Shown: piece after piece, positions 529 through 43,522 of the stretch
How positions within the stretch are numbered: position 1 is the first letter of the stretch
How the letters are laid out: each line of letters opens with the position of its first letter
Origin: Alistipes sp.
GTDB taxonomy: Bacteria; Bacteroidota; Bacteroidia; Bacteroidales; Rikenellaceae
Assembly (NCBI GenBank): GCA_017505725.1
Contig: JAFVOR010000065.1
Coordinates: 1 to 43,523, forward strand
Direction of reading: 5' to 3'
Length of the DNA stretch: 43,523 bases
Notes under the pieces: model-generated
Databases searched by the model: none
Told to the model about the DNA's origin: nothing
What the model saw: only the letters and a program-made list of their open reading frames with translations
Position numbers and translations under genes: made by a program

Positions 529-590
529 GTCAGACGAAGGGAATATATTGGGTAAGCCTTTCTCGCGAGTGGGTTTTAATTTTAATACCC

Positions 591-816
591 ACACCAAGGG
601 GAAAGAGCAATAACCAAACTGCGAGGGATCTCTTGCAAGCAGATGACTGCATAAGGAATACTCAAATGGCAGCAATGGTGTACGGGTGTGATTTTTAATA
701 CCCACGCTAAGGGGAGAGAGCAATAGCCAAACTGCGAGGGATCTCTTGCAAGCAGATGACTGCATAAGGAATACTCAAATGGCAGCAATGGTGTACGGGT
801 ATGATTTTTAATACCC
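591..816. repeat. Tandem pair of 93-bp spacer module E
   Basis: Two adjacent copies of the 93-bp spacer (591-683 and 704-796), each followed by its palindrome, differ mainly in the first 20 bp. This is the longest undivided spacer type in the array. The short open frames across it are chance frames kept alive by the duplication. Confidence 0.85.
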
Positions 817-1251
817 ACCCTACAAGCGGACGAATGGTTGCACAGAACGCCACACTATGACTCGGGTATTATTTTTAATACCCGTCAGACGAAGGGGATA
901 TATTGGGTAGGCTTTTCTCGCGAGTGGGTATGAATTTTAATACCCAGCAATCGGTGGTGTGTGGTATGAATGTTTAACCTCGTCCAGATGGGTATGAATT
1001 TTAATACCCGTCAGACGAAGGGGAGATATTGGGTAAGCCTTTCTCGCGAGTGGGTATGAATTTTAATACCCAGCAGTCGGTGGTGTGTGGTATGAATGTT
1101 TAACCTCGTCCAGATGGGTATGAATTTTAATACCTGTCAAACAGTAGTACGTGTATGGACACTCAAGAGCCCTGGGTATTAAAGATAATAGACATCGTAT
1201 TTATGACAGTGTAACGCCTCGGGATGGAAGCGGTGACATTGCCCCAATCTG

Positions 1252-1977: not shown

Positions 1978-1989
1978 CGCCTGCGCCAT

Positions 1990-2023
1990 AAAATGCAAAA
2001 TTCAAAATGCAGAATGCAAAATT
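1990..2023. repeat. Short AATGCAAAATT-type repeat at the recO start
   Basis: Three degenerate copies of AATGCAAAATT/AATGCAGAATG lie back to back between the XerD-like gene and recO. It is a low-complexity intergenic tract. It supplies the spurious upstream ATG that extends the recO frame. Confidence 0.6.
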
Positions 2024-2033
2024 AGTATTCAGT

Positions 2034-2933: not shown

Positions 2934-2943
2934 ACTCTGTTCT

Positions 2944-10704: not shown

Positions 10705-11849
10705 TTTCCAAAGTTTATATAGCGACTCGTAGCCAGCGCAAAGTAGGACAAGACGATGCGGGGATCGCCATTCTGTCTCAGTCGGCGCAAAGCCTCCTCG
10801 AGCAACTCGATTATCTGTTCGATATTCTCCGAACCGATGTAAGGCGAGAACTTCGAGCAGAAGTCAGCCTCCTCGCCCCAAAGATACGAAGCCTCGGCAA
10901 CACCTGCGTGGGTGATGTAGGCCTCACGCAGCAGTCGTGCAAAGTCCGCCATAAGACCCATCTGTCGCTCACGCGAGAGCGATGCAACCTCGTCGGCCCA
11001 AGCCAGCAGCTCGAGGTGTTTGTTGAGGTAGCAGTGGCGCATCATTGTGCGGAAGAGGTTGAAGTTCTCGTTTTTGATCTCATCCTCCTCGCCCGAGAGC
11101 ATCTGTCGCAACTGCAACAGGTCGCCACTCGCAAGGCGTGCCATATTTCGCACCTCCGCCTCGTCGGCAATACCACCTTTGCGAATCTCTGCCACCATCT
11201 CCTCCTGCGCAATGCGAGGCACGGTGACCTCTTGTGTACGCGAAAGGATGGTGCCGAGAATCTTGTCGGGCTGCTCGGTGACGAGGATAAATATCGTATC
11301 CTCCCAAGGCTCCTCCAAGATTTTGAGTATCATATTCGAAGCCCTCTCGTTCATCGTCTCGGGCAACCATATAAGCATCGTCTTATACCTCGAAGCGAAG
11401 GACTTGAACGAGAGTTTGCGAATCATCTCCTCCGCCTCGCGCACCGCAATAGCACCCTTGAGTGTCTTGCCCAGGTCGAGCATATCGTACCACTGCTGTG
11501 GCGAGAAGTAGCCACCCGTACTCTCGAACAACGAGCGGAACTCGTCGATAAAGTCGGTTGCCACCAAGCCTCTCTCGGGTTTCTTGCCCTGCTTGTTCAC
11601 TGGGAAGACGATGTGGAGGTCGGGGTGCGCCAACTTCTCTATCTGTCGACACGAAGGGCACTCGCCACACGAATCGCCATCGTGACGGTTGGTGCAGTGG
11701 AGATATTGGGTGTATGCCAATGCCAAAGGGAGCGTACCCGAGCCCGCCGCACCTACAAAGAGTTGTGCGTGGCTGATACGACCGCCATCAATACCCGCTG
11801 CCAATCGTCGCTTCAGATCGGTGTGTCCTATAATATCGCAAAATCTCAT
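10701..11849 (-). CDS. holB: DNA polymerase III subunit delta'
   Basis: Clamp-loader subunit of 382 aa with an AAA+ fold. The N-terminal RFCDIIGHTDLKRRL is standard for the family. The phosphate loop reads GAAGSGT at residues 33-39 and lacks the lysine, as expected for a stator subunit that does not hydrolyse ATP. A zinc site is formed by Cys52, Cys61, Cys64 and Cys67. The SRC-type segment appears as GTILSRTQEVTVPRI, so the usual Arg-Cys pair is Arg-Thr. A loop not usual in E. coli HolB (IVFPVNKQGKKPERGLVATDF) follows the zinc module. Both ends overlap neighbouring genes by 4 bp, so expression is coupled. Confidence 0.88.
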   Translation of the reverse strand: MRFCDIIGHTDLKRRLAAGIDGGRISHAQLFVGAAGSGTLPLALAYTQYLHCTNRHDGDSCGECPSCRQIEKLAHPDLHIVFPVNKQGKKPERGLVATDFIDEFRSLFESTGGYFSPQQWYDMLDLGKTLKGAIAVREAEEMIRKLSFKSFASRYKTMLIWLPETMNERASNMILKILEEPWEDTIFILVTEQPDKILGTILSRTQEVTVPRIAQEEMVAEIRKGGIADEAEVRNMARLASGDLLQLRQMLSGEEDEIKNENFNLFRTMMRHCYLNKHLELLAWADEVASLSRERQMGLMADFARLLREAYITHAGVAEASYLWGEEADFCSKFSPYIGSENIEQIIELLEEALRRLRQNGDPRIVLSYFALATSRYINFGK

Positions 11850-13315
11850 CGTTTACCCCTCCTCAAAAAATGGTTTATCAGACCCTCTACATCAATCTTC
11901 TCACGCCACACTGCGTAGCACAGATAGATAACGATAAATAGGGTCGAAACGGTATATCGCACCACATCGTTCGGCAAAGAGAGTCTCTCCGCCACAAAGA
12001 ATATGGCAAGAGCCAATGCCACATACTCGGCCATTCGACCAAACTGATATGGCGTAGGATAGTACAATCGGTTGAGCACAATGCTCACCACCACCATCAC
12101 CACCTCGGCAGCAAAGCGACTCCAGGCCGCTCCGTAGTAGCCCATACGAGGTATCAGCAGCGCACCGAAACCCACCGAGCAGACCAGGCCCGTGAGGGTG
12201 ATCCACAACGCATATCGGGTCTTCTCCTCCCTCTTGTACCAGAACGAGAGGTTGAGCCACACGCCACTCAGAATGTTTGCACCAAGCACCACGGGCAGGA
12301 TGTGGATACCCTCGCGGAAGTCGCGTCCCACAATCAGCGCAAAGATGTCACGATAGAGGGCAATGGCGAGGAATATAAACATCGAGACCATCACAAAGTA
12401 TTTCAACGCCGCAGCATTCATCTCCACGAACTCCTCCTTGCGGAAGTTCGAGAGGAAGAATGGCTCGGCAGCGAGGCGGTACATCTGCGTAAAGAGGGTC
12501 ATCACCACCGCAATCTTGGTGATTGCGCCATAGATGCCGAGTTGCGCCATAGCTGCATCGGGCACAAGGTACTTGATGAGTTGGCGGTCGATAAACTCGT
12601 TGGCTGTACCCGCAATGCCCGAGAGGAGCAGCGGCAACGAGTAGCCGAATATCAGGAGCAGCAATGCCCCATCAATCTTGAGACTCACACGCCCCGAGAC
12701 AACAAGCACCGCCACAAAGGTTGTAACACTTGCTATAAGGTTGGCAACAAATGCCCAGCCCACGCCAAACTCGCTATCGAAGAGCCCCATAGCCCAGAAC
12801 AGCACAGCAAAGCCCACCTGCAAGACAATATTAAAGAGCTTGAGCAAGACATAGTGCAGAGCCTTGCCCTGCTCACGCAATCGTGCAAACGGGATGCACG
12901 ACGCCACATCCATCATCACAATGGCGGCCACGGTCACCACATAGAGCGGATGGGCGGCATAGACCTCGCCCATAAGCGCCGAAGCCTCGTTGCGAAGGAG
13001 GAGCACCACCGCAAAGAATAGCAACGCAGCCAGCGATGTGACACCCCACGTGGTGGCAAAGAGCTTGCGCTTGCCCTGCTCGATGTCGCCACCCTCGGCC
13101 TCGGCCTTGGCGGCAAAGCGGAAGTAGCTCGACTCCATACCCATAGTGAGCACCACCAGCGCAAACGGAATCAGGGCGTAGACATCGGTGATGATGCCAT
13201 ACGACTCCACTCCGAAAATGCGGGTGTAGAATGGCGTCAGCAGGTAGCTCAGCATTCTGCCGAGTATGGTGCTGATGCCATAGATAGCGGTCTGTTTTGC
13301 GAGTTTTTCGATCAT
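11846..13315 (-). CDS. Oligosaccharide flippase (Wzx-like, MATE/MurJ superfamily)
   Basis: Polytopic inner-membrane protein of 489 aa with about 12-14 hydrophobic helices. It begins with the typical KLAKQTAIYGISTILGRMLSYLLTPFYTRIF stretch of polysaccharide transporters. It is expected to flip lipid-linked sugar repeats for capsule, O-antigen or S-layer glycan across the membrane. It is the first gene of the six-gene minus operon, with a TATCTTTG promoter box 43 bp upstream of the start. The window also holds two GT2 enzymes and a Stealth transferase, but those lie 6 kb away on separate units, so the physiological link is only inferred. Confidence 0.85.
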   Translation of the reverse strand: MIEKLAKQTAIYGISTILGRMLSYLLTPFYTRIFGVESYGIITDVYALIPFALVVLTMGMESSYFRFAAKAEAEGGDIEQGKRKLFATTWGVTSLAALLFFAVVLLLRNEASALMGEVYAAHPLYVVTVAAIVMMDVASCIPFARLREQGKALHYVLLKLFNIVLQVGFAVLFWAMGLFDSEFGVGWAFVANLIASVTTFVAVLVVSGRVSLKIDGALLLLIFGYSLPLLLSGIAGTANEFIDRQLIKYLVPDAAMAQLGIYGAITKIAVVMTLFTQMYRLAAEPFFLSNFRKEEFVEMNAAALKYFVMVSMFIFLAIALYRDIFALIVGRDFREGIHILPVVLGANILSGVWLNLSFWYKREEKTRYALWITLTGLVCSVGFGALLIPRMGYYGAAWSRFAAEVVMVVVSIVLNRLYYPTPYQFGRMAEYVALALAIFFVAERLSLPNDVVRYTVSTLFIVIYLCYAVWREKIDVEGLINHFLRRGKR

Positions 13316-30114: not shown

Positions 30115-30681
30115 ATGAACAATTCCAAAATCACACTTCGAGCGGCGACAAGAGAGGATGCCTCAATTGTCGCACAGGCGGTAGCCATAGCCATCGGTGT
30201 CGAGGAGACTCTGCACGACTATTGTGGCGAGTACTACCTCGATGTCCTGACCGATGTAGCCCAGGCAGACGACACACAGTATAGTTGGCGTTTCGCCATT
30301 GTTGCCGAGACGGAGGGTAGGGCAGTGGGTGCTGTTGTTGGTTACGATGGCGCACGCCTGCACCAACTGCGCGAAGGCACCTTCCGAGTGATAAGCGCGA
30401 GGACGGGACGCACGCCACATATCGACGACGAAACCGAGGCTGGCGAGTACTACCTCGATTCGGTGGCGGTACTGCCCGAGTACCGAGGCCTGGGTGTGGG
30501 CTCGGCCCTTGTCGAAGCCTTCTGCGAGAGGGCCTTTGCCGAGGGTGCCGAACGTGTAGGGTTGATTGTCGAGGAGGAGAACCTGACGGCCGAAAATCTC
30601 TACCTCCGCCAGGGCTTCGAGTGTGTGGGCGAACGACTCTTCTTTGGCCACAAAATGCACCATTTGCAGCGATGTAGATAG
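30115..30681 (+). CDS. GNAT-family N-acetyltransferase
   Basis: Cytoplasmic acetyl-CoA-dependent transferase of 188 aa. The GNAT fold is seen from the N-terminal ITLRAATREDASIVAQAV to the acetyl-CoA loop in LDSVAVLPEYRGLGVGSALVEAFCERAF (RGLGVG, about residues 125-130) and the closing GLIVEEENLTAENLYLRQGFECVGERLFFGHKMH. The substrate is unknown. It lies 48 bp upstream of the ADP-ribosyltransferase-like gene in the same direction and may share its transcript. Confidence 0.88.
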   Translation: MNNSKITLRAATREDASIVAQAVAIAIGVEETLHDYCGEYYLDVLTDVAQADDTQYSWRFAIVAETEGRAVGAVVGYDGARLHQLREGTFRVISARTGRTPHIDDETEAGEYYLDSVAVLPEYRGLGVGSALVEAFCERAFAEGAERVGLIVEEENLTAENLYLRQGFECVGERLFFGHKMHHLQRCR

Positions 30682-30729
30682 AAAACCATCTAGTTACACC
30701 TCTTTTCAACGCAACAAAACAGAGTAAAT

Positions 30730-31326
30730 ATGGAGATATTCTATCACGGAACACACCGACTATTCGACCACTTTTCGCTCGACCATCAGGGCGAAGGCGA
30801 GGGCAAGGCCAAGTATGGTAGCGGCATCTACATCACCTCGAGCTTCGCTACTGCAGCTCGCTATGCTGCCAAAGCCGGCAAGCGTCAGGGGGTCGACACC
30901 TACTATGTCTACACCATTGAGGTGCCCGACATCACACCCACCAACCACCTCTTCTCGTGCCGCCCCGTTGCCGAGGATGTAGCCTCGCATATAGAGTCGG
31001 TGCTCGGCGAGAGAGTCCCCGACGAAGCGAAGCTCAAGGGGAAGTTCTTTCGCAAGTATGTGGCAAATCTGATTACGGGGCAACGCACCACAGTCAAGAA
31101 GATGACGAGCCGAGCCGAGAGCGAGGCAGAGAGGGCGGCAGCAAGGTTTTTCGACGAGAATGGCCTTGTCTACTTCGCCTGGCCACAAGCGCAGACCAAG
31201 CCCGATGGCATCACCAATCGCACGGTGTTCAATGTGGACAATATCCGCATTCTCAAGGTAGAGCAGGTGCAGGTCGATGACGAAAACGACCTCATTGAGG
31301 GTTCACAAGTAGATGTAAAACGCTAA
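30730..31326 (+). CDS. ADP-ribosyltransferase-like protein (candidate toxin)
   Basis: Predicted soluble protein of 198 aa with no signal peptide. The N-terminus reads EIFYHGTHRLFDHFSL, then KAKYGSGIYITSSFATAARYAAKAG, then YVYTIEVPD. This order (Tyr-His-Gly-Thr, then Gly-x-Gly-Ile-Tyr followed by a Ser/Thr-rich loop and an Ala-rich helix) is that of ADP-ribosyltransferase folds of the polyvalent-protein/DUF3990 sort, where His and Tyr bind NAD. The usual catalytic Glu or Gln is not obvious to me; Glu150 region or TVFNVDN near 178 are possible sites. The next gene, 6 bp downstream, encodes a NADAR protein, a family that removes ADP-ribose, so a toxin/antitoxin pair is the natural reading. It is not DarT-like in sequence. 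Confidence 0.65.
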   Translation: MEIFYHGTHRLFDHFSLDHQGEGEGKAKYGSGIYITSSFATAARYAAKAGKRQGVDTYYVYTIEVPDITPTNHLFSCRPVAEDVASHIESVLGERVPDEAKLKGKFFRKYVANLITGQRTTVKKMTSRAESEAERAAARFFDENGLVYFAWPQAQTKPDGITNRTVFNVDNIRILKVEQVQVDDENDLIEGSQVDVKR

Positions 31327-31332
31327 TGTACA

Positions 31333-31941
31333 ATGAGTTTTTATAGTATAGATCAATTCATCCGCGAAAACTACCCCCAATATTGGGGCTACGAGAGCTA
31401 TCCGCAAGATCGATGCATCTGCATCCGCAAGGTGAGCGACGAGTGGGGCATATTCAGCAACTTTGCCCTCACACCGCTTGTGGTCGATGGCGTAGAGTTC
31501 AAGAGTAGCGAGGAGCTGTTTCAGCTGATGAAGTTCAAGGACGGAGAGATTCTCGACCGCATTCGCCACAACATCACTCGCGAGGGAAAGGTTTGCTACC
31601 AGATCAAGAAGACGGTGAAGAGCTACGAAAAGGAGCATCGCCGCACCGATTGGGGCACGATGGTTATCGATGCTATGAAGTTCTGCTTGCAGACCAAGTA
31701 TGAGCAGAGCGAGGAGTTCCGACGCAAGCTGGAAGCGTCGCGTGGTCACTATATAGTCGAGGATCAAACCTCGCTACCCAAACGCAACCCCGACGCGTGG
31801 GGTGTAAAACCGTGTGGCACAGAGTTTTCGGGCCCAAATCTACTCGGTCGTCTGCTGATGGAGCTACGCGATAATGGCTCACTCACCTACACCCTACCAC
31901 CCGACGCGCTCGACCTCCTCGATACCCTAAAGCAGAGGTAA
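31333..31941 (+). CDS. NADAR-family protein (candidate antitoxin)
   Basis: Soluble protein of 202 aa. The NADAR/YbiA core is seen in EWGIFSNFALTPLVVDGVEFKSSEELFQLMKFKDGEILDRI (about residues 35-75) and YEKEHRRTDWGTMVIDAMKFCLQTKYEQSEEFRRKL (about 95-130). NADAR proteins act as N-glycosidases, on riboflavin intermediates in YbiA and on ADP-ribosylated guanosine in DNA in DarT1-NADAR pairs. The usual core is followed by about 70 residues with a proline-rich end. It starts 6 bp after the ADP-ribosyltransferase-like gene and converges with the WXG/FtsK cluster, whose last stop is only 32 bp away. Confidence 0.8.
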   Translation: MSFYSIDQFIRENYPQYWGYESYPQDRCICIRKVSDEWGIFSNFALTPLVVDGVEFKSSEELFQLMKFKDGEILDRIRHNITREGKVCYQIKKTVKSYEKEHRRTDWGTMVIDAMKFCLQTKYEQSEEFRRKLEASRGHYIVEDQTSLPKRNPDAWGVKPCGTEFSGPNLLGRLLMELRDNGSLTYTLPPDALDLLDTLKQR

Positions 31942-31973
31942 ATAACGCTTTGAAATGTAATATCGTTGAGGAT

Positions 31974-32216
31974 TTATCTCCTTTTGCACTGCTCGAGGCA
32001 ATCATATATCTCCTGCTCATACTTTTTCATATCGAGCAGGTATGGAGTGATATACTCAACGCAATGCTTCCATTCGCGCGATATCGCATCTATACAACCA
32101 TCTGAAAAGTGTTTGGCCATACCATCTTGCCACGACTCAAATAGCTTTTCGCTCATCCTGGACAATTTGTCGAAATCCTCTTTGATCATCTGCAACTTTT
32201 CATCTTCCATATCCAA
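31974..32216 (-). CDS. WXG-like small helical protein
   Basis: All-helical protein of 80 aa, with no signal peptide. Two helices flank a turn with W29-x-D31-x5-F37 (SWQDGMAKHF), the same spacing as in the 93-aa WXG100-like protein of this cluster. A Y-x-x-x-E (YDCLE, 71-75) near the C-terminus resembles the YxxxD/E export signal of type VII substrates. Three Cys (40, 52 and 73) and a basic end are also present. It is the last gene of the five-gene unit, 9 bp after the 178-aa gene. The family assignment is inference from pattern and context. Confidence 0.65.
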   Translation of the reverse strand: MDMEDEKLQMIKEDFDKLSRMSEKLFESWQDGMAKHFSDGCIDAISREWKHCVEYITPYLLDMKKYEQEIYDCLEQCKRR

Positions 32217-32225
32217 GACTATATT

Positions 32226-32762
32226 TTAGTTAATACTCCTCTCCTTATATTCGTTTATAGCTTGCTCCACATTGCTTAAGTATATGCCACCACGCTCTAC
32301 ATAGGTTTGTATCAGGTGTTGAGCTGAAGCTATTCGTTGTTCTATAAGGTTGACATATGTATGCGATTGCATTAACTTGCTATGTGCAAGGCCTTCGCAC
32401 GATTGAGCCTGATGGTAAAGGTTACCCGACAAATGCTCATACTCTCTGCGGCATTCGGCTATGTAGGAGTAATCGGGTATGAACTCACTATGTGATGAGC
32501 CATCGGGGTTGTAATATGTCTGGTATGAGCCGTAGTTGTAAGAATCTCGGTAAACATTATAGGCGTTGCTAATTTCGTCGTCGAGTTGCTCGCGCTCACG
32601 CCTAATCTGTTGCTTTACATCTTCCAACTTCTCGATATGTTGGCGCAAGGCCACCGTGAACTGATGAATATGCTCCTCAAAAGATTGGTAGAAATCTCCA
32701 AACTTCTGTTTAAACTCAGCGATGGCCTCAACATCTTTTATATAAACATCTTGATCTTTCAT
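32226..32762 (-). CDS. Helical protein of the WXG/FtsK cluster (LXG-like?)
   Basis: Protein of 178 aa with no signal peptide and strongly helical, coiled-coil-like ends (EAIAEFKQKFGDFYQSFEEHIHQFTVALRQHIEKLEDVKQQIRRE and SKLMQSHTYVNLIEQRIASAQHLI). A Tyr/Asn-rich middle (about 75-105, NVYRDSYNYGSYQTYYNPDG) breaks the helices. The length and the two long helices with a central break recall LXG or WXG-like type VII substrates or their chaperones, but no LXG motif is seen and I do not assign a family. It lies 12 bp behind the WXG100-like gene. Confidence 0.55.
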   Translation of the reverse strand: MKDQDVYIKDVEAIAEFKQKFGDFYQSFEEHIHQFTVALRQHIEKLEDVKQQIRREREQLDDEISNAYNVYRDSYNYGSYQTYYNPDGSSHSEFIPDYSYIAECRREYEHLSGNLYHQAQSCEGLAHSKLMQSHTYVNLIEQRIASAQHLIQTYVERGGIYLSNVEQAINEYKERSIN

Positions 32763-32774
32763 TACAGATCACAT

Positions 32775-33056
32775 TTATATACGAGTTGACTTATACTGCT
32801 CGAGAATCTCACACTGACGCTGCAGATATTGGTTATATTCAGAAAACTCTTCGGACATTCGCTTAATCATCTGCACACTCTCTTCAAAACGCACCTTAAA
32901 CTCTTCGTTTTTGTCATCTCGCCAACCCTCGCTAACATAGTTCATACGTCGCTGCGCCTGGGTCATAACATTGTACATCTGCTCTCCCATCTGTTGGAGA
33001 TTATTGCCAAATTCTCTTAAATCGTCAGTACTTCTAACGCCAGCATCTATTGCCAT
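32775..33056 (-). CDS. WXG100/ESAT-6-like protein
   Basis: Helical hairpin protein of 93 aa, the length of EsxA/YukE-type proteins. The first helix (DDLREFGNNLQQMGEQMYNVMTQAQRRMNYV) leads to the turn W45-x-D47-x5-F53 (GWRDDKNEEFKVRFE), and the second helix follows (ESVQMIKRMSEEFSEYNQYLQRQCEILEQY). WXG100 proteins are dimeric substrates of FtsK/EccC-type ATPases in type VII secretion. Here the Gly of WxG is Asp, and no clear YxxxD signal is seen in the tail. It starts 28 bp after the ATPase gene. Assignment rests on length, motif spacing and the ATPase next to it. Confidence 0.75.
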   Translation of the reverse strand: MAIDAGVRSTDDLREFGNNLQQMGEQMYNVMTQAQRRMNYVSEGWRDDKNEEFKVRFEESVQMIKRMSEEFSEYNQYLQRQCEILEQYKSTRI

Positions 33057-33084
33057 AATTCTTTAATTTTTATAGGTTGATATT

Positions 33085-35832
33085 TTATTTGATAACATAT
33101 GGAGTGAACATCTGATACTCATCATCCATTGGTTGATAGTAGATTGCCCTGAGACGCTCAACTACTGAAGGAAGTTGCTCTAAATGAATATCACCATTCA
33201 GACCAAGCTGTAGTGCAGCCTTTTCGTCAGCGCGAAGCATTACCAAGTGGTTAAACTTATTATACACATATTTCGCATTAGCAAAATCCGCGAATATGAG
33301 TTTTGATGGAACATCAATTTGAAGCAGTGTATTTATTCCCACACGCGGACCATTATCCAGGATGTAGGCCAAAGCTTTACGATAAGTTGATATGTCGCTT
33401 GCAGGCCCCTTTTCTACCGAACTATTGCCAAAACCAAATTTGTTGTAATTATTATTGAAGTCCGCCCCCGTTGGTTCAGGCTCCGCAGTAGAAGTTGATG
33501 CAGCAAGTTTTGCGCCCTCAATAGGTCGGTCTAACTTCAAACCACGCATTCGCTCCTGTCCTAATATAACCAATAACGAAGGTTCGATGTCTCCATCCTG
33601 AATACCTTTCGCCATTCGATGTAAGCACTTGCCCGCATCTCTACTGTCGATGAGCGAAATCACCCCTTCGCCCTCAAGTTTATCTAACACATCAAGATAT
33701 TTTCCATCATCTTTGCCTAAACAATCAATGACATAGGTATGGAGCATTCTGCCACTATTCTTGGCTGTATAGACAAGCGAGGTTAGGGCATTCATCACCG
33801 TGCGAGTTACCTGCTCTTGGTCGTTGATGCCGAAGAAGAGAATATTCTCTCCATCGTCGACCTTCAACGGTGTTTGCACAATTTCGCGCTTTAGGTCGAC
33901 AGAGCAACCTAGAGCTGCTACATTATGGCGTTTCGACGGTAGTTTCTCTATAACTTTGTCGTCCAAGGCAAATATCTGCGAGCCATTGAAATAGAACTGA
34001 CCATTGCTATTGTTATCTGCCGCCTTGGTTGTGATTCTTTTTGCCAAAGTCGGCACTGCGGCATTATCAGTAAAGTACGATTGGAACAAAAATTCCTGTT
34101 CTCCTCTGAAACGATAGTAAACCTGACCAGGCGATAAAGTTGCGGTTTTTTTAGAAGAGTTCGGAATCATCTTCTCTGAATCAGATGGTTCGCACCAAAG
34201 CAAATATCGATCTGTCATTTGACCTAGAATATCCGATGAGATATCACTATTTGCCAATGTTTGAGTAGCAAATATGATGTGGATACCTTGGTTACGACCC
34301 TCCTTTGCTATAAGTTCAATAATCTCCGACATCTCTCTAAAGACCTTACGGTTGTCATTCGTCGACGGACTGAACATTGCGTGGCACTCATCAACAACAA
34401 ATAAAATTTGTGGCATACGATTGCCCGGATTGGCACGATTGTAATCTGTAATATTATTTACTCCTGATGCACTAAGTTGCTTGCCTCGATTTTTCATCTG
34501 TTCTTGCAAATCGTGCAAAATTTCCAATGTGACCTGCATATCACTATTGTCCACAAGCAGAGCCCTCACGTGCTTTGACTCTCTGTATCGATTGAACTCG
34601 ACACCGCCCATCTTAAAGTCGAGAAGATAGAACTGCAAAACCTCGGGGCTATACTTGAGCATCGCTCCGGCAATAATGTTATGCACAAATACCGACTTAC
34701 CAGAACCCGAGCGTCCCATTATGAAAGAGTGGATGTGGTCAATCGTATTCAAAAGGAAGTTTATCTTATTTCCCGATGCATCCTCACCAATAGGAATCTC
34801 AATAGCTGTATCGATCTCTGCATAAGGCTGCTTGAACATTCCCTCGTGGTCCGGCTTTATGATTTTTGCCTCTGGTTTTGCCTTTGCCTCCTCATTGATA
34901 TATTTGAATATCGATGGTGTCACCGATTTGTTATCGAAGTAGGAGACAATCTTATCCTCCTTGGCATCCAATGCGGTGTAGTGGTCCTTCATATCGATGA
35001 GCGACTTTCCAGAGTTAGTAAGTTTTTCCTCGGTGTTATGTAGTACCACAAAATAGATTCCGCCCTTATGGCCATTTTCAAACAAGGGCGCTAATTGTTG
35101 TGCTACATAGTCATACATCTTAGGGTAGTCGAGCAAAACCACAACCTCGTAATAGGGATAATGGTAGCACTTGTTCTCCTCGTTGTACTCTACGAGACTA
35201 CCACAATCCTGAAGTGCAGATACCATACGCTGCTGCATCTCCTTGCAAAAGTCATTCAATGATTGTGTGTCTACAATGAGATTGCTGAATAGAGACTCAT
35301 TAAGTTGTTTGGTAAAAAACTGTCCTCCACCACTATAGTTGAGGTCAACAAAGTTAAGGTGCACACGCTTGATTGGCAACGACAAGAGCATATTGCCCAC
35401 CAAATTATTCATCAACTTAATGGCCTTGTCTGCACTCGACTTGTCGTATTGGATAACATAGTTTGCCTCCTTACTTGTTGCACCCTGCCACGCCGTAAAT
35501 GTAGGAGTGGTGAATTTTGTGCCATATATTGTATCGGTCAACATCTTTCCCGAAGGGAGAAGTGGTGCCGAATACTTGTTCTTTACGCGCTGTTTGATTT
35601 GTGTAATCAGGGCGTCTATCTCGTCTGCTGTCAATTTGCCATTGTCGTTGGGTATTAAATCGGGAAACAACAAACTCAGTTTCGACAACTTCTCGTTTGT
35701 CTCCTCCTTTGCCTTCTCGACTTGTTCGTTGTAGTTCGCTTCTGTACCCGCAACGATGTTGTCGATGTGCTGCTTATACTCTTCCAGCAATAATTTGATG
35801 GCTTGTAATGTCTTCATATCTGATTCCTTCAT
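33085..35832 (-). CDS. FtsK/SpoIIIE (EccC-like) ATPase with three RecA-like units
   Basis: Large ATPase of 915 aa without any membrane helix or FHA domain. An N-terminal coiled coil (about 1-85) replaces the membrane anchor of FtsK and EccC. Unit 1 (about 115-310) lacks a P-loop but keeps the ADKAIKLMNNLVGNMLLSLPIKRVHLNFVDLNYSG fold pattern. Unit 2 (about 335-600) is canonical: Walker A GRSGSGKS (373-380), Walker B ILFVVDE (476-482) and sensor FATQTLANSDI (521-531). Unit 3 (about 635-910) is degenerate (NILFFGINDQEQVTRT), with a LLVILGQ strand and an insert. Its role is probably to drive small helical substrates or move a polymer. It sits between the WG-repeat protein and the WXG-like genes. 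Confidence 0.88.
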   Translation of the reverse strand: MKESDMKTLQAIKLLLEEYKQHIDNIVAGTEANYNEQVEKAKEETNEKLSKLSLLFPDLIPNDNGKLTADEIDALITQIKQRVKNKYSAPLLPSGKMLTDTIYGTKFTTPTFTAWQGATSKEANYVIQYDKSSADKAIKLMNNLVGNMLLSLPIKRVHLNFVDLNYSGGGQFFTKQLNESLFSNLIVDTQSLNDFCKEMQQRMVSALQDCGSLVEYNEENKCYHYPYYEVVVLLDYPKMYDYVAQQLAPLFENGHKGGIYFVVLHNTEEKLTNSGKSLIDMKDHYTALDAKEDKIVSYFDNKSVTPSIFKYINEEAKAKPEAKIIKPDHEGMFKQPYAEIDTAIEIPIGEDASGNKINFLLNTIDHIHSFIMGRSGSGKSVFVHNIIAGAMLKYSPEVLQFYLLDFKMGGVEFNRYRESKHVRALLVDNSDMQVTLEILHDLQEQMKNRGKQLSASGVNNITDYNRANPGNRMPQILFVVDECHAMFSPSTNDNRKVFREMSEIIELIAKEGRNQGIHIIFATQTLANSDISSDILGQMTDRYLLWCEPSDSEKMIPNSSKKTATLSPGQVYYRFRGEQEFLFQSYFTDNAAVPTLAKRITTKAADNNSNGQFYFNGSQIFALDDKVIEKLPSKRHNVAALGCSVDLKREIVQTPLKVDDGENILFFGINDQEQVTRTVMNALTSLVYTAKNSGRMLHTYVIDCLGKDDGKYLDVLDKLEGEGVISLIDSRDAGKCLHRMAKGIQDGDIEPSLLVILGQERMRGLKLDRPIEGAKLAASTSTAEPEPTGADFNNNYNKFGFGNSSVEKGPASDISTYRKALAYILDNGPRVGINTLLQIDVPSKLIFADFANAKYVYNKFNHLVMLRADEKAALQLGLNGDIHLEQLPSVVERLRAIYYQPMDDEYQMFTPYVIK

Positions 35833-35838
35833 TTTCTT

Positions 35839-35861
35839 GAGTCCCTAGCGTGAGGAGACTC
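35839..35861. other. Small hairpin between WG-repeat gene and ATPase gene
   Basis: GAGTCCCT (35839-35846) can pair with AGG-A-GACTC (35853-35861) with one bulged base and a 6-nt loop. It lies in the 66-bp gap of the operon and could act as an RNA processing or attenuation element; it is weak on its own. Confidence 0.35.
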
Positions 35862-35898
35862 GAAGAGTAAGTTTTTACTAAAGTTTTCTTGATTTCAA

Positions 35899-38721
35899 TT
35901 ATTCAAGTGGCTGGACAAGCTTTCCACTACGATTGATATAGCCGGTCTTATTGCCCTTTTCAACCCTTGCAAGGCCTCCACTCCAATCATATATATAATC
36001 GTAGACAGGTGCCACAATTTCGGCTCCGCTATCATTTATAAAGCCATACTTGCTTTTTACTTCCACCTTTCTCCAGCCCTTTTCGTCTTTATTGTAGATG
36101 TAGCTGTATTTAGGGGTAACGATTTCTGTTCCGGAAGAGTTGACAAAACCATACTTACTATTTAACTCTACTTTTCTCCATCCGTTATCTTCAGGACCAT
36201 AAATATAGTCATATTTAGCCTTGATGATCTCTTTTCCGTCGCCATCTATGAAACCATATTTATCGCCAACCTGTACCTTTCTCCAACCATTGCCTTCTGC
36301 ACCATAGATATAATCATACTTAACAGGTACGACAAGTTTTCCCGATTTATTTATGAAACCATACTTGTTGTCATTTTGTACCTTCCTCCAGCCATTGCCT
36401 TCTGCACTATAGATGTATTCATAGTCCAATGATACGGTTTCCGTCTGTGCAGCTTCCACCTCCTTTATAGCTTTATTAACTGCATCGTGGGCTGCCTGCT
36501 GTGCCGCAGCCATATCCTCCTCTATAGTGCCATTCTTTGTCACCTCAACAACTTCACGATGAGCCTCGTTTGCATATGAGGAAGAGTCTGTGTTATCTGG
36601 TTTAATAAACAGCCATATTACAGCAGCCGTTATTGCGACTCCAGATCCCATAGCAAAGCCTTTGAAAATAGTTCCAAAAGAGAGATTCTGCGCAGCATAT
36701 AAAGAGCAGCCAATCACACCGCAACTGATAGTCCAAGAGCACCACCACTTAAAGTTATTCGTAATTAGCGATAGGATAAGGCTTACAATTGCCCATAGAA
36801 GTGAGAGCACGAATATTGTTTTATAGCCATTAAATTCGTATTCGAACTCGCTTGCAGAGATATCATTTTTCAAATACTTGATATGCTTTTTAATATCCGC
36901 GACCTGCTTCTTGCCATTGTTCTTTGCGTCGATCAGCTCGCTAGCCAGCTTCTTTAGTTTTGTGACATAGGTTTTCAACGCGGTCGAACTCTTGTCGCGA
37001 TAGTCGGAGGTGATGGTTGATTCGAATTTAGAATAGGATTTATTTGCTCTATCTATCGAAGCCTCAAGTTCACGCAACAATGTTGCGCAAGTAGCCTCCT
37101 CCGAGCTAACGTAATCATCCGCGCTCTTATAAGGGGCACTACAGAATAGATAATGGTGTAATTTGGGCTTAGCTACATTGAGCTTTGTTTTTAGAGAGTT
37201 CTTTGCGGCATTGAGATTATTCTTCAGATCATCAAACTTCTCTTCACAGTTTGATCTCATCTCGCTAATGGCCTCCTCTACCTCTTCTTTCAATGACTCA
37301 ACCTCATTAATCAGCTTTTGATGTGCTTTTTCAGCATCGAGAGCCTTTTTGTGCTCTTCCTCTGCTTGACGCTCCTTCTCTTCGGCCTTGCGACGCTTTG
37401 CCTCTTCGGCCTTGCGCTCCTCTTCAGCTTTTTTGCGTGCCTCTTCCTCCAATCGTTTGCGATATAAAGTCCTCTCCTTTTTTACAGCCGCCGCCCACGC
37501 CCTATGATTCTCCTTATCATACGCACTCTCCTCTTCTGACATAGCGCTAAAAGATTTAGGTGAGTCGGAGATGTTATCCTTATTTAATACGGATTTGCCA
37601 TTTTGGGGGGCAAGCTGATTTTTCTCGATGCGATCCAACGCCGAGTGATCTCCTCGTAGTGCACCTTCAATCAGCCAACCTATGCTGTTTTGAGGATTAT
37701 TTACGCTGCGGGTTAGCAGTGTTTGGCACTCCTCAATGGTGCCCTCCTCTCTACTTTCAACTATTCGATAGTGAGCTTGACCCTTTAATCTCTCAAGCGC
37801 AATTTTGGCTGCCTGATTCTCTTTCTGTGCCAACCCATACCAATATGCGGCACTTTTTGGTTCGAGATTATTGTCGTTATACTCGTACCACAGACCAACA
37901 CGATATTGCCATAACGCACACTCATCGTGACCTGCCATATTCAGTAAACCACTAATAATATAGTCGTTGTCGCTGTCATCGTCGTCATCAATCAGGCAGC
38001 GTCCGAGGGCATTGTTAAAATATCTGTCCGTATCAAAGGTGTTAAGATCGCAACTCTTGAGATGATTTTCAAAAAGATCACGAGCCACTAATGCCTTGAG
38101 TATCTCGAGAGGCATTAGAAGCGTGTCCTGATATCGGAACTCCCAAAGGCCTTGGCTCTCCTCCTTCAAGTTGGAGATAGCAACATTGTGTAATGAACCA
38201 AATTGAGCTATTTTATCGCTTAGTTTAGGCAATAATTTGTCCAACGAACTACGGGTATCGTCGCTCCACTCAAAAACAAATGATTTATTCTTAAAACGGC
38301 ATAAATTATTGGTAGCAACAACTTTGGCAATCTCTTTTGTCAACTTCACATAGCTTGCCTCCATCTCTTTTAACGATTCGGCAGCATCCAAGTCTCTTTT
38401 GCTACTCAACGGCTTAATATCGTGAATAATATCGTAGGCTTGAGCATAATACTCAAGCGCCTTGGTATAACTCTTTTTCACACCTATGGAGTGTTCATAG
38501 ATGTATCCCATCAGCAAAAGAGCATTTTTGTTCTTTTGATCAACCAAAGGCTTTAGATATTTAACGATATCCCCCGTGGTATGCTCTTCGGCTTGTCCAT
38601 ATAGGATGGACATTGCCATTTTCCATTGCGCTACGCTATCTCCGCTTTGAGAACTCTCTTCTAAAAGACGCAACTCATCTGCGGATAATCCCAATAACTC
38701 ATCTTTGGTAAATATGTACAT
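35899..38721 (-). CDS. Sel1/coiled-coil/transmembrane/WG-repeat protein
   Basis: Multi-domain protein of 940 aa, first gene of the WXG/FtsK cluster. It opens with Sel1-like TPR repeats (about 15-95, NALLLMGYIYEHSIGVKKSYTKALEYY, and again 250-310). A highly charged coiled coil follows (about 405-520, KKAEEERKAEEAKRRKAEE region), then a helical stretch to 630. Two or three membrane helices lie at about 633-654, 660-680 and 686-706. The C-terminal 175 residues are five WG repeats of about 35 aa (766-940), each with Y-x-Y-I-Y, GWRKV and KYGFI. The WG part and the coiled coil lie on sides of the membrane that I cannot assign. It may be the membrane anchor that the ATPase lacks. Confidence 0.85.
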   Translation of the reverse strand: MYIFTKDELLGLSADELRLLEESSQSGDSVAQWKMAMSILYGQAEEHTTGDIVKYLKPLVDQKNKNALLLMGYIYEHSIGVKKSYTKALEYYAQAYDIIHDIKPLSSKRDLDAAESLKEMEASYVKLTKEIAKVVATNNLCRFKNKSFVFEWSDDTRSSLDKLLPKLSDKIAQFGSLHNVAISNLKEESQGLWEFRYQDTLLMPLEILKALVARDLFENHLKSCDLNTFDTDRYFNNALGRCLIDDDDDSDNDYIISGLLNMAGHDECALWQYRVGLWYEYNDNNLEPKSAAYWYGLAQKENQAAKIALERLKGQAHYRIVESREEGTIEECQTLLTRSVNNPQNSIGWLIEGALRGDHSALDRIEKNQLAPQNGKSVLNKDNISDSPKSFSAMSEEESAYDKENHRAWAAAVKKERTLYRKRLEEEARKKAEEERKAEEAKRRKAEEKERQAEEEHKKALDAEKAHQKLINEVESLKEEVEEAISEMRSNCEEKFDDLKNNLNAAKNSLKTKLNVAKPKLHHYLFCSAPYKSADDYVSSEEATCATLLRELEASIDRANKSYSKFESTITSDYRDKSSTALKTYVTKLKKLASELIDAKNNGKKQVADIKKHIKYLKNDISASEFEYEFNGYKTIFVLSLLWAIVSLILSLITNNFKWWCSWTISCGVIGCSLYAAQNLSFGTIFKGFAMGSGVAITAAVIWLFIKPDNTDSSSYANEAHREVVEVTKNGTIEEDMAAAQQAAHDAVNKAIKEVEAAQTETVSLDYEYIYSAEGNGWRKVQNDNKYGFINKSGKLVVPVKYDYIYGAEGNGWRKVQVGDKYGFIDGDGKEIIKAKYDYIYGPEDNGWRKVELNSKYGFVNSSGTEIVTPKYSYIYNKDEKGWRKVEVKSKYGFINDSGAEIVAPVYDYIYDWSGGLARVEKGNKTGYINRSGKLVQPLE

Positions 38722-38869
38722 AACACACTCTTTTATGAGGTTTCTTAATATGTTTTTTCGGTAATGTAAAAGTATACAAATTATCTTTACAATACAAATA
38801 ATGTTCTAAAATATTACATTTAATCAACAGGTTGTTTCGATGAACCCAACAAAAAAGTTCCGGGCTGAG
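38722..38869. other. A+T-rich gap between mnmA and the WXG/FtsK cluster
   Basis: This 148-bp stretch is very A+T-rich and holds no gene. It must contain the promoter of the five-gene cluster unless mnmA transcription reads through. I see AT-rich -7-like strings (for example around 38775-38800) but none that exactly matches TAnnTTTG, so no promoter is called. Confidence 0.5.
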
Positions 38870-39985
38870 TTACTCCTCCACGATGATTCCGCCACCGAGC
38901 ACCACATCTCCGCGATAGAATGCTGCTGCTTGACCGGGTGCTATGGCGGTCAGTGGTTCGTGAAGGCGAACGAGCAGAGTGTTGTCGGCAAGGAGCGTTA
39001 CGATACAACGATTCTCCTGCTTGCGGTATCGAATCTTCACGATTACATCATCCCTCTCCAAGAGGAGCGACGGATTGACTATGTTCCAATCCTTCAGTCG
39101 CATCTCGGTGCGCTCAAGCGACTTTAGGTCACCGAGCACAACCCTATTCTCGGCAGGGATAATCTCTTTGACAAAGACCGCCTGATTGAGGTCGATGCCT
39201 AAGCCACGCCTTTGACCAATCGTGTAGAAGGGGTAACCCTCGTGCCAGGCTATGAAGTTGCCCTCGACATCTACGAATTTACCCCTCTGAATAGCCTTGT
39301 CAGCAACCCTTTCGCGAAGGAATGAACGGTAATCCATCGGGCAGAAGCAGACTCCGAGGCTATCTTTCTTGTGCGCCACCTTCGCAAAACCTCGTTGCTC
39401 TGCTATCTCGCGAACTCGCTGCTTGGTCAGCCCTCCCAGCGGCAGCACCATTCGCTCCAAGATATCCTGCGACAAGCCCCAAAGGAAGAACGATTGGTTT
39501 TTATCCTCGTCGACGCCATTGGTGATGTGCCACAGATTATCAATTTTGCGTCTCTGCACATAGTGCCCAGTTGCGATGTGGTAGATGCCCATCTCGTCAG
39601 CGAGCTGGCGAAGCAGAGGCCACTTCAAGTCGTTGTTGCAGAGGGTGCAAGGCACAGGAGTATGGCCACCCATATATTCGCTGACGAAGTAGTCGATAAT
39701 GGTCGATTTGAAACGCTCGCGCTGGTCGGATACGATGTGCTCGATGCCCAAGCGACGACACAAATCGCGTGCATCGTCGAGATAGTCGGTCGAGCCATCC
39801 TTCTCGTAGAAACGGAAGGTCACCCCCACAACCTCGTAGCCGGCATCCTGCAGCAGCAACGCCGCCACCGAACTATCAGTACCGCCACTCATCCCGAGCA
39901 AAACCCTCTTGTCGCCCGAAAAGATGTCCGAGCTCTCGATCAACCTCTCCTGGCGTGTGTACTGACCCTCTTTATACTTGCTCAT
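38870..39985 (-). CDS. mnmA: tRNA-specific 2-thiouridylase MnmA
   Basis: Thiolates U34 of tRNA for Lys, Glu and Gln in the cytoplasm. It is 371 aa from the ATG opening [13 protein letters not shown]; the longer frame to 40045 overlaps the small upstream gene and is not used. The PP-loop reads [18 protein letters not shown], where Thr replaces the usual Val. Cysteine sites are C113 and C116 in [13 protein letters not shown] and C213 and C215 in [13 protein letters not shown], and the ATGHYVQ segment is present. The C-terminal barrel covers [11 protein letters not shown] to [13 protein letters not shown]. It follows the small winged-helix gene after 2 bp. Confidence 0.92.
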
Positions 39986-39987
39986 AA

Positions 39988-40197
39988 TTATATCATCAAC
40001 ATAATTCGACCCTCGGCCTTGACAAACATATCGGGATAGCGACAAACCACAGCATAGACCTGGTTGGTCGTTACGGGCTTGCCATCCTTGCGGATATGTA
40101 GCCGCTGACGGTTGATCATCTCGGCAATCTGCTCGGTCCGCATCCCTCTGTTCTGACTCGCAAGGCAGTAGAGTATGGCCTCCTCAATTTTCATCAC
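39988..40197 (-). CDS. Small winged-helix protein (HARE-HTH-like)
   Basis: Protein of 69 aa. The sequence [65 protein letters not shown] reads as a complete small helix-turn-helix with a wing, similar in layout to the HARE-HTH domain of restriction and chromatin factors (helix, second helix RTEQIAEMI, third helix [15 protein letters not shown], then the EGRIML beta-hairpin). It may bind DNA and regulate, but the function is not established. It lies 40 bp behind the helicase gene and 2 bp before mnmA. Confidence 0.7.
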
Positions 40198-40237
40198 TCG
40201 CTCTGTTTTTATTCCGAATCGTTCAAGACGTATGCCA

Positions 40238-43200
40238 CTATTCTGTCATATAGGCTGATACCACTTTAAGAATCTCATCGCCCCAAACCTCCCATTTGCG
40301 AATACCAAAACCGCTGATACCCATTAGCTCCTCTCGTGTTGTCGGTTTGTCTGTTGCGATGAGTACAAGGATATTGTTATGCAGAAGGTAGTACGACGGC
40401 AACTCCTTCTCCATTGCCACACGGGTACGCATAGTACGCAACAAACCAAGCAATTCCATATCGGTTAGTGTGTTGCCTTCGGAGTCCACCACAATTCTGA
40501 ATACCTCGTTCTCAATAATTACCTCTTTGTATGCGGTTGTATTGATAGCTGCTCCACCATTGCGTCCACTTGTGGTCTTACTTTTCTGCATTTTTGGTGC
40601 TGCACTCTTGTTTTTAGGAACAAAGTATGATGGTTTATGTTCCGATGCATCTTCGATACCAAACGAGTTGTTCAGCCAAAACTCATACTGCCCTGCGCTC
40701 AACATACGACCGCACCCCGTTCTATCGGGTTTATAGTTTGTACAACCCAAGAAATAACCATCAGAACCCTTCTTGACTACCAAATAGCCATCTCGACACC
40801 AGTCACATTTGTGGATAGACAACTCGCCACCGCTTTTGTTATTAGTCATAAATCCGCAAATCTCTTGATCGTTGGTGCAAATCCACAACTTCAAACCATA
40901 GTTCTTATTCCACTTAAATTGTAGCGGATAGCCACATATAGGGCAACAATCTTTCACCTTTTTAGGGGCTTTGAGATCCACTTTTAACTCTCCATGCAGG
41001 GTTACATTCGGATAGTTATGAGGCTCACTCAACAACTCTTTGATAAACTCCGATGGGCGCATATCGGGCGTAACGATAAATACTCGATTCTTTGTACGAG
41101 TCAATGCCACATAGAATAAGCGACGCTCCTCGGCATAGTTATACGAGTTGTCAAACGACACTACCAAATTCAAAACGGGGTCGTCATCAACCTTTGACGG
41201 GAAGCCGTAGGTTTCATCTTTTGCATTGATGATAATCACATTCTCGGCGGTCAGACCCTTTGAACTATGAGCAGTCATAAAATTAAGTTTGACCTTATTG
41301 CCGTACTTAACCGAATAAACCCTACCGTTCTCCTCGTTGTAGTTGAATTGCTCTGCCTTACACATATTGCGTGCATCGAAACCATAGCGACCAATCAGCA
41401 AAATTGATGGCACCTTTGTTTTACCCTCTACTGCACTATACTCCAGAATCTCGCCAATGGCATTTTCAATCGCCACGCCAAGATTATAGTACAGACCGCC
41501 TTTGTGCGATTCTCCCTTTGCTCCCTTTTCATCGCCATAAGTCGAGATAATTACGGGGTTGTCTATGCGTTTGGGTGAAATTAGTTCCTTTTTAATCTGT
41601 TGGGAGTTCTTTTGCACGAATGTTCCTGCAATGTCGATTATCTCTTGGGCATTGCGATATGTGCGGGTAATCTTCAACTCTTGACCATAACCCACCTCCT
41701 CGCAGAATTTTGTAAACAGAGGGAGGATAGAGCCGCTGAACGCATAGATAGATTGCCAATCATCGCCAACAGCCATAATCTTTGCTTCACACAACTTCGA
41801 CAACTCCTTGATAAGGTTGTATCTCTGTCGAGAAATGTCCTGATACTCATCCACGATGATGTATTTGTAGGCGAGCTGTTCTTTCTCTATCTGCTTTTTG
41901 CGGATTAACTCTGCCGACTCGTTAATCATATCCTCAAAGTCGATGCAGTGCTGCTCTTTGAGTGCTTGCTGATACTCCAAGTAACAAACCTCGCAAATAT
42001 CGAGGAATAGTTTGGTGCGGACATTCTTCGTGTTGCTTCTAAAATCGGCAAACTTTCCACCCTTAAAACCTTGTGTCTTGAAGTTGCCGATAAAGGTGCA
42101 TATTAACTGCGTAAGGCGAGTTATGTATTTATTCTCCTCGGTATCAACAAGGCGTTTATACACCTCTGCCGTAGGCCTCTCTTTAAGTTCGTAACCGTGA
42201 GCCAACAGCATCTCTCGAAGGTGTTCCAACATCTCCCTGCCATCTCTGTATTGCGAGAATGTGTAGATAAGGTCGGTCTTGTGCTTGCGGTGCAAAGAGA
42301 CCTTATCATTGATAACATATTTGTATTTTTTGAGTTGCTCTTGGGTGTATCGGCTACTGCGACCGTCTTCCGTAATGCCGAAATGTTCGATATAACTGAC
42401 CTTATTCCCTTGCACTATACGGAAGTCTGGCGTATATGGTTTGTTCGCACTCAAAATGCGATACTGATACATTGGCTCGTATTCGTACTCGATCTGATTA
42501 AGGTAGAGAAAGTTTGCAATCTGCACCTCCTCCATCGAACGCAGCACCTCATTGTTGAGGGTTTGAGTACGACGGGTGCGCCTATCAACAACCTGCTGTA
42601 CATAATCTTGCAAATCGCTTTTAAGAGTCGAATAATCGGCATCAGCAACAAATTGGAAATACTCGCCTAAATCCTCACCCTCGTATGGAGCCGAGAAATA
42701 GGAGCCAAAGAACAAAATAAGTTTATCAACGAGTTGAGGATTACGCAACACCTTCGTTTTGAGGTACTCGTTGATAACATTATACATAAAGCCGTTATCC
42801 ACAATCTTGCGTTGCTCCTCTTCGCCTTGTCGAAGAATAGAGTAACCTATGGAGTGGAATGTGGTGATGATACTTGGAATTTTAAGGTTATGGTTGATGC
42901 GCTCTCGCAACTCCTCAACAGCCTTGTTAGTAAAAGAGATAACCAAAATTTGTTCTGGCTTCACTCCTCGCTTTTCGACCAAATATCGCACCTTTGCAGC
43001 CACCGTTGTAGTTTTACCAGCTCCTGCGCCCGCAATAACGAGGGTGTTATCTTCTTCCGACAATACGACCTCTCTCTGCTCATTGTCAAGCAATATGGCA
43101 GGGTCGCACGCTTTGAGGATATTGTTAAGATACTCTTTTTCAGATTCTATGTGGTTAGTAACAAATTGGTCGTTATGTTTCTTGATAGTTGCCGACTCTT

Positions 43201-43522
43201 GGGTTAGGTCTTGAATCTCCTCGTAATGATTTATGAAAGCCTCAATTTGTGCGAGGTCGAGATTGTTTTTGCTAACATAATCTTCCAATATATTAGCCTC
43301 AACAATAGAGCAGAAGAATTTGTACCCCTCTTGGTATTCCGAGATAAAATGTTTGTAATCGCTACGGGCAATAAACGAGTCGCCACCCAATAATTCTGCA
43401 AATTCGGTGTTGAATTGTAATGCTCTTTGATATTGCGTTGGCTGTTGAGCAGTATGTTTTTGAGGCTTAATGTTACTATCTGCCTCCTTTTTACGCTTAC
43501 GGAATAGATCAAGTATGCCCAT
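40238..43522 (-). CDS. UvrD/Rep-type helicase with nuclease-like insert, zinc fingers and HRDC
   Basis: SF1A helicase of 1094 aa that begins one base before the window edge, so an earlier start cannot be excluded. The Q-motif LDNEQR (145-150), Walker A AGAGAGKTT (164-172), SFTNKAVEELRERI (Ia), the TFHSIG segment, YIIVDEYQD (II), GDDWQSIYAF (III), FMTAHSSKGLTAENVI (V) and EERRLFYVALTRT (VI) are all present. An insert at about 330-430 (E332, then TPDF with D366 and YIEHFGI with E379) resembles a PD-(D/E)XK nuclease core. Two Cys-rich zinc modules (CPICGYP and CDWCRDGY...GC) precede a C-terminal HRDC-like domain (about 1020-1094). It likely acts in DNA repair or defence. It is followed by the winged-helix gene after 40 bp. 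Confidence 0.85.
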   Translation of the reverse strand: MGILDLFRKRKKEADSNIKPQKHTAQQPTQYQRALQFNTEFAELLGGDSFIARSDYKHFISEYQEGYKFFCSIVEANILEDYVSKNNLDLAQIEAFINHYEEIQDLTQESATIKKHNDQFVTNHIESEKEYLNNILKACDPAILLDNEQREVVLSEEDNTLVIAGAGAGKTTTVAAKVRYLVEKRGVKPEQILVISFTNKAVEELRERINHNLKIPSIITTFHSIGYSILRQGEEEQRKIVDNGFMYNVINEYLKTKVLRNPQLVDKLILFFGSYFSAPYEGEDLGEYFQFVADADYSTLKSDLQDYVQQVVDRRTRRTQTLNNEVLRSMEEVQIANFLYLNQIEYEYEPMYQYRILSANKPYTPDFRIVQGNKVSYIEHFGITEDGRSSRYTQEQLKKYKYVINDKVSLHRKHKTDLIYTFSQYRDGREMLEHLREMLLAHGYELKERPTAEVYKRLVDTEENKYITRLTQLICTFIGNFKTQGFKGGKFADFRSNTKNVRTKLFLDICEVCYLEYQQALKEQHCIDFEDMINESAELIRKKQIEKEQLAYKYIIVDEYQDISRQRYNLIKELSKLCEAKIMAVGDDWQSIYAFSGSILPLFTKFCEEVGYGQELKITRTYRNAQEIIDIAGTFVQKNSQQIKKELISPKRIDNPVIISTYGDEKGAKGESHKGGLYYNLGVAIENAIGEILEYSAVEGKTKVPSILLIGRYGFDARNMCKAEQFNYNEENGRVYSVKYGNKVKLNFMTAHSSKGLTAENVIIINAKDETYGFPSKVDDDPVLNLVVSFDNSYNYAEERRLFYVALTRTKNRVFIVTPDMRPSEFIKELLSEPHNYPNVTLHGELKVDLKAPKKVKDCCPICGYPLQFKWNKNYGLKLWICTNDQEICGFMTNNKSGGELSIHKCDWCRDGYLVVKKGSDGYFLGCTNYKPDRTGCGRMLSAGQYEFWLNNSFGIEDASEHKPSYFVPKNKSAAPKMQKSKTTSGRNGGAAINTTAYKEVIIENEVFRIVVDSEGNTLTDMELLGLLRTMRTRVAMEKELPSYYLLHNNILVLIATDKPTTREELMGISGFGIRKWEVWGDEILKVVSAYMTE

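Follow-up and report, generated by a model that had tools for sequence, protein, structure and literature searches.

The 43,523-nucleotide stretch analysed here (contig JAFVOR010000065.1 of Alistipes sp., hereafter the window) carries a five-gene cassette in which a gene for an EccC/EssC-like ATPase lies beside one for a WXG100 homologue, two features of type VII secretion systems (T7SS). The source genome (G000) comprises 2.36 Mb in 105 contigs and is 85% complete. All five genes are encoded on the minus strand, running from 38721 to 31974 with intergenic gaps of 66, 28, 12, and 9 bp, and all five open reading frames (ORFs) are intact, in agreement with the coordinates and the co-directional arrangement with 9–66 bp gaps proposed in the initial annotation. 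In the order of transcription, the genes are as follows:

35899..38721, minus strand: putative anchor protein, 940 amino acids (aa), with a Sel1-type N-terminal region, a charged coiled coil, hydrophobic segments, and C-terminal WG repeats
33085..35832, minus strand: soluble EccC/EssC-like ATPase, 915 aa, with N-terminal helices followed by domains D1, D2, and D3
32775..33056, minus strand: WXG-A, 93 aa, a WXG100/ESAT-6 homologue (Pfam, profile comparison) with WRD replacing WXG
32226..32762, minus strand: helical-hairpin protein, 178 aa, with helices at residues 5–74 and 98–177 and tip strands at 78–84 and 90–96
31974..32216, minus strand: WXG-B, 80 aa, with a W-x-D-x5-F motif; the ORF begins with TTG, and the start may be an ATG 6 bases inside

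A contig scan with a two-row ATPase alignment yielded nine loci, giving ten distinct loci together with the window; L019, from the Bacteroidales bacterium SW299 genome, belongs to the same genome as L005/L007 and was counted once. Ten is a lower bound because the scan used two short patterns. The genes for the ATPase, WXG-A, and the hairpin protein occur together in all ten loci, within this subfamily the opposite of a neighborhood survey in which homologues of the ATPase consistently lack a WXG neighbor. WXG-B is present in all nine testable loci, L018 being cut by the contig end. In L018, a single 504-aa gene without a Pfam match (11710–13224) is inserted between the ATPase and WXG-A. Identities to the window proteins in the nine other loci are 28–63% for WXG-A and 30–49% for the ATPase.

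Among 393 order-level genomes, the ATPase was matched at E ≤ 1e-30 in three (G000, G348, and G396), and the WXG-A profile, searched at E ≤ 1e-5 in an equal-sized draw with the same handles, matched these three and G160. In G160, a 287-aa fragment lies at a contig end beside two WXG genes; it has no Pfam match, matches the C-terminal ATPase domain of the more distant L009 (z 10.0) and that of L010 (z 12.2), and matches D3 of the window ATPase weakly (z 3.4). In the phylum draw, the ATPase (E ≤ 1e-40) and a wider WXG profile (E ≤ 1e-5) each matched 2 of 395 genomes, and these were the same two. The ATPase search among 150 relatives also matched G022, a genome of the same genus, where WXG-like neighbors are present, one of them at 16.1 bits, below the cut-off. 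This separate WXG-FtsK locus (L010, 2327–12942) encodes a 1205-aa protein with a GYF2-like start, as judged by eye, and two WXG-like proteins; ubiquitin-type genes lie beside it, encoding a JAB peptidase (PF14464, 34.9 bits, cut-off 25) and a ThiF/E1-like enzyme (85.9, cut-off 28.1). The cassette in L007 lies amid genes that by eye are integrase-like and relaxase-like, and the window genes beside mnmA are common to none of five relatives. As far as these searches reach, the cassette is conserved but rare and patchily spread in Bacteroidales.

The ATPase consists of three FtsK-type domains. A Walker A motif (GRSGSGKS, residues 373–380) is found in the middle domain, D2, which also carries VVDECH (479–484), and is absent from D1 and D3; ATP should therefore be hydrolyzed by D2 alone, judging from the motifs. 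The FtsK_SpoIIIE family was matched in Pfam at 3e-26, and the EccCa model matched residues 341–531 at 1.6e-27, far under the whole-protein cut-off of that model. D1 is homologous to D2 (94.4%, E 8.6e-8), and D3 is weakly so (E 0.0038). The predicted model contains three alpha/beta domains at a mean predicted local distance difference test score (pLDDT) of 69, and its fold matches place EccC, EssC, and FtsK structures above HerA, with HerA and DndH also among the matches. The tandem FtsK domains of the EccC/EssC family that typify canonical T7SS are accordingly present. As noted in the initial annotation, the ATPase lacks a membrane anchor of its own: no transmembrane (TM) segment was found in any of the ten subfamily ATPases (L017 partial), whose top Kyte-Doolittle windows of 0.96–1.46 stay below the threshold of 1.6. 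One TM segment is predicted in the more distant 1145-aa ATPase of L009. An adjoining 304-aa gene in that locus (2337–3251), which precedes a WXG gene, duplicates the C-terminal domain of this ATPase (z 34.9). The window genome holds one full ATPase copy; apart from it, the sole match shows 31% identity across residues 346–531.

WXG-A matched the Pfam WXG100 family at 1.5e-5 with 25.6 bits, under the cut-off of 27.3, which is exceeded by its L015 homologue (33.0 bits). The ten-row WXG-A profile matches solved WXG100 proteins over positions 11–88 (SAG1039, 1e-5; EsxA, 1.3e-4) and also Helicobacter pylori HP0062 (E 0.03), with the caveat that 1.4e-5 was also reached by a designed protein, across 32 residues, and that ferritins and other helical proteins appeared from 0.01. 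W45, D47, and F53 are invariant in the ten rows. A T7SS-like ATPase encoded beside a WXG100 homologue, as proposed earlier for this Bacteroidales genome, is thus borne out by domain matches and profile comparison, the window copy itself staying under the Pfam cut-off. For WXG-B, W29, D31, and F37 are invariant in nine rows, and WxD is found in all nine. No Pfam match near the cut-off was obtained (the L015 copy matched WXG100 at 0.03), and the comparison of the WXG-A and WXG-B profiles was not significant; the probable kinship of WXG-B to the WXG proteins rests on the common W-x-D-x5-F motif. Of the initial description of both as WXG-like, the WXG100 homology of WXG-A stands, the motif is WxD and not WxG, and WXG-B keeps the designation by its motif.

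The gene directly upstream of the ATPase encodes the putative anchor. Its WG repeats were matched at 2.5e-28 in Pfam, and its Sel1-type region at 3.1e-5 with 24.8 bits, under the cut-off of 30.7. A charged coiled coil was recognized by eye at about residues 395–600, followed by two to three hydrophobic segments predicted to be TM (635–654, 659–677, and 688–706). A predicted-TM protein is encoded directly upstream of the ATPase in eight of the nine testable loci, L017 being cut there. Since such a partner accompanies a motor that lacks a TM segment of its own, it is the natural candidate for an anchor, consistent with the earlier proposal that it stands in place of the known membrane core. The N-terminal regions of the window and L012 proteins are homologous (z 36), and that of L012 is in turn homologous to those of five Prevotella-type anchors (z 4.4–13). 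Scored directly against the same five, the window region reached z 1.5 to 5.9; the connection to L007 was weak (z 3.65). Among the four anchors scanned in Pfam, WG repeats were found in those of the window and L012 and in neither L007 nor L013. L012 carries tandem anchor paralogues (234–5032), the first of which (628 aa) has no predicted TM segment.

The helical-hairpin protein is predicted to form helices of 70 and 80 residues joined by two short strands (mean pLDDT 89), and fold searches returned generic long-helix proteins and nothing more specific. In L027, the locus of G160, the ATPase end is followed by two WXG genes, a gene for a 309-aa protein ending in HNH, an SMI1/KNR4-like (SUKH-like) gene, a gene for a 73-aa WxD protein, and a Ser/Thr kinase gene. 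In L009, the corresponding place is taken by a 470-aa protein with a weak C-terminal GNAT match (20.1 bits, cut-off 20.7). The window hairpin matched the toxin-like N-termini of L027, L009, and L010 with z 10.2, 6.7, and 4.2, respectively, against at most 2.1 for five control segments. The match to the L009 protein was also obtained by BLASTP (3e-6, a single comparison) and by profile comparison (87.6%, 3.5e-6 over 68 columns), and the L007 hairpin gave z 3.0–3.4 against the toxin N-termini. By these comparisons, an HNH toxin-like protein from another Bacteroidales genome has an N-terminal domain homologous to the window hairpin. Outside Bacteroidota, a Helicobacter plasmid has a WXG gene, then a gene for a 340-aa protein that ends in a WHH nuclease, followed by SMI1/KNR4, a small-protein gene, and FtsK. 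A Caballeronia plasmid carries WXG100, a 436-aa protein that matched nothing in Pfam, two small genes, and FtsK, adjoined by CARF, VWA, PP2C, and kinase genes.

The GC content of the cassette is 0.423, versus 0.520 for the 32 kb on its left side and 0.455 for the 4.8 kb on its right side. Upstream on the same strand, mnmA lies between the cassette and a UvrD-type helicase gene (40238–43522, minus strand) with Zn ribbon-like and HRDC domains, which is located in an AT-rich stretch. Two convergent genes lie downstream (30730–31941, plus strand), an ART-like gene (ART-PolyVal, 30.0 bits, cut-off 31.2) and a NADAR gene (56.7, cut-off 35.1), which by their domains look like an ADP-ribosylation toxin-antitoxin or defense pair. 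Among the ten window genes scanned in Pfam (30115 to 43522), neither an integrase nor the triad of VWA (TerY), kinase, and PP2C was found; the cassette genes showed no nuclease, kinase, or sensor gene and no immunity family. Among the Prevotella-type loci, the five whose sequence continues past WXG-B (L013–L017) all have a SprT-like metallopeptidase gene directly after it, with HExxH in each and Pfam run for L013 only.

Compared with the T7SSb of Bacillota (EssC/YukB, EsxA, EssA, EssB, EsaA, and YukD), the window shares the EssC-type motor fold and an EsxA-type hairpin homologue, whereas its motor is 915 aa long without TM segments and with one Walker A motif. YukC/EssB was above the cut-off in none of four genomes (two weak matches in G000, itself 85% complete), the EsaA N-terminus in neither of two, and YukD not in the single genome searched, with Bacillus subtilis among the positive controls each time; EccB matched none of four genomes, with the control genomes likewise silent. 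The earlier claim that the known membrane core is missing therefore holds for EssB/YukC, EsaA, and YukD at these cut-offs, and for EccB the search carries no weight. An EccC-type ATPase and a WXG100 homologue are shared with the T7SSa/ESX of Actinomycetota, from which the window differs in that WXG-A has no YxxxD/E. In the LXG polymorphic toxins of Bacillota, which have small helical partners, a helical N-terminal domain is likewise encoded between small WXG-like proteins, whereas the window hairpin has no C-terminal toxin and no Pfam LXG match.

The closest precedent is a footnote (Table 1, footnote 6) of Zhang et al. (2012, PMC3482391), which describes a solo WXG protein with a three-domain YueA-like HerA/FtsK ATPase, active in the middle domain only, as "mobile versions of T7SS" in hosts including bacteroidetes. 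The window has a WXG protein, three FtsK-type domains of which the middle one looks active, and a Bacteroidetes host; that footnote, however, mentions no Sel1/TM/WG anchor, long hairpin, or WXG-B. In H. pylori, a TerY-P island tied to stress or phage response holds WxG and FtsK as the "minimal set" of a T7SS, and a "WXG100 secretion system" cluster combines FtsK with an HNH/EndoVII nuclease (2016, PMC4978471). HP0062 carries WRD (PMC3397514); this cluster (HP0062, HP0066) resembles the window in its WRD, hairpin dimer, and linked FtsK gene; it differs in its nuclease and DnaK-like genes, and the passages describing it mention no Sel1/TM/WG anchor (PMC4978471, PMC3397514). Neither the idea of a type VII-like set in Bacteroidetes, noted in that footnote, nor that of WxG plus FtsK as a minimal set, which appears in the H. 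pylori paper, is new. The window cassette is a member of the known WXG/three-domain FtsK kind, as far as the footnote describes it, and not a canonical T7SSa or T7SSb. According to the literature searches, the conserved five-gene form with a TM anchor is new, as is the apparent homology, in Bacteroidales, between a bare hairpin and the N-termini of toxin-like proteins.

The best explanation, to which we assign a probability of about 0.5, is a minimal T7SS-like export or toxin-carrier cassette of Bacteroidales. The soluble three-domain motor, with ATP hydrolyzed by the middle domain, would be tethered to the inner membrane through the Sel1/coiled-coil/TM protein, would recognize the long hairpin together with WXG-A and WXG-B, and would export these small proteins, or a cargo attached to the long hairpin, from the cytoplasm. 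Transport of a hairpin-tagged protein is favored by an EccC-like motor beside a WXG100 homologue, and an export or toxin-carrier role with delivery of cargo by the homology of the hairpin to the N-terminus of an HNH toxin-like protein adjoining a SUKH-like gene. In related loci, the long hairpin bears a C-terminal toxin-like domain with an immunity-like gene adjoining; in the window it would be a bare carrier, and the cargo may therefore be the hairpins or else an effector whose gene lies elsewhere. A more specific version, which we hold tentatively and with less confidence, is a genuine T7SS of diderm bacteria in a minimal build, in which a dedicated Sel1/coiled-coil/TM anchor recruits the soluble motor, a three-part hairpin complex is exported, WG repeats lie beyond the TM segments in some members, and sister systems mount nuclease toxins on the long hairpin.

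Several observations weigh against export. Besides the T7SSb core proteins not found over the cut-offs, no outer-membrane component was seen through which a route might lead. The motif is WxD and not literal WXG in all ten WXG-A rows, and YxxxD/E was found within the last 35 residues in none of the ten WXG-A and in one of nine WXG-B proteins, that of the window. L020 has no TM anchor, its upstream gene encoding a 244-aa Lcl_C-type protein (below the cut-off) without TM segments. No hairpin protein in the ten loci (154–178 aa each) carries a toxin domain, and that of the window ends with helix 98–177. Against the toxin N-termini, the L012, L015, and L016 hairpins were not significant (z 0.8–2.9), and that of L020 gave z 1.3–4.1, yet a control reached 4.4; no match to the window hairpin was obtained with the Helicobacter and Caballeronia N-termini (z 0.03 and 2.2, respectively). 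Finally, no WXG neighbor was seen for a more distant 588-aa FtsK relative in G080 (L011, same genus); the stretch with this FtsK gene shows regularly repeated translation units at about 1200–2860, by eye probably a CRISPR array.

The strongest alternative, which we consider rather unlikely, is an intracellular stress or anti-phage complex in which an FtsK/HerA-type motor acts on DNA or a trapped protein and the WXG-like hairpins are regulatory subunits controlling assembly. It keeps weight because FtsK/HerA motors also serve defense and genes of the kinase, phosphatase, and CARF types accompany related loci, as at the Caballeronia locus and, for the Ser/Thr kinase, L027. The H. pylori TerY-P island (PMC4978471), the SprT-like genes, and the ART-like/NADAR pair point the same way, as do HerA and DndH among the fold matches. 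The PADLOC defense models SspH, Mad8, and HerA match the ATPase, but in its FtsK domain and nothing else in the cassette; moreover, EccC, EssC, and FtsK structures outrank HerA, the partner belongs to a family otherwise known from export, and the cassette lacks nuclease, kinase, and sensor genes by Pfam.

It is improbable that the cassette is what remains of a WXG-FtsK system for toxin delivery, with the toxin lost and the effector-less rest decaying or retained for another purpose. The hairpin is homologous to toxin N-termini yet bears no toxin, as a remnant would; however, the five ORFs are intact, and ten loci share the form without a toxin, their Walker and WxD motifs being conserved, which favors selection on the bare form. 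A chance association of an FtsK paralogue with unrelated helical proteins nearby has a negligible probability: small helical proteins do match many coiled coils, but order and content are conserved in ten loci and the WXG100 matches span most of WXG-A.

The literature searches returned no test of a working type VII-like exporter in Gram-negative bacteria, and a direct test would be feasible given a carrier strain. For such work, the cassette supplies a conserved set of few genes, a candidate anchor in place of the missing membrane core, and, through the homology of its hairpin protein, a connection to a toxin-like nuclease whose neighbor is immunity-like.

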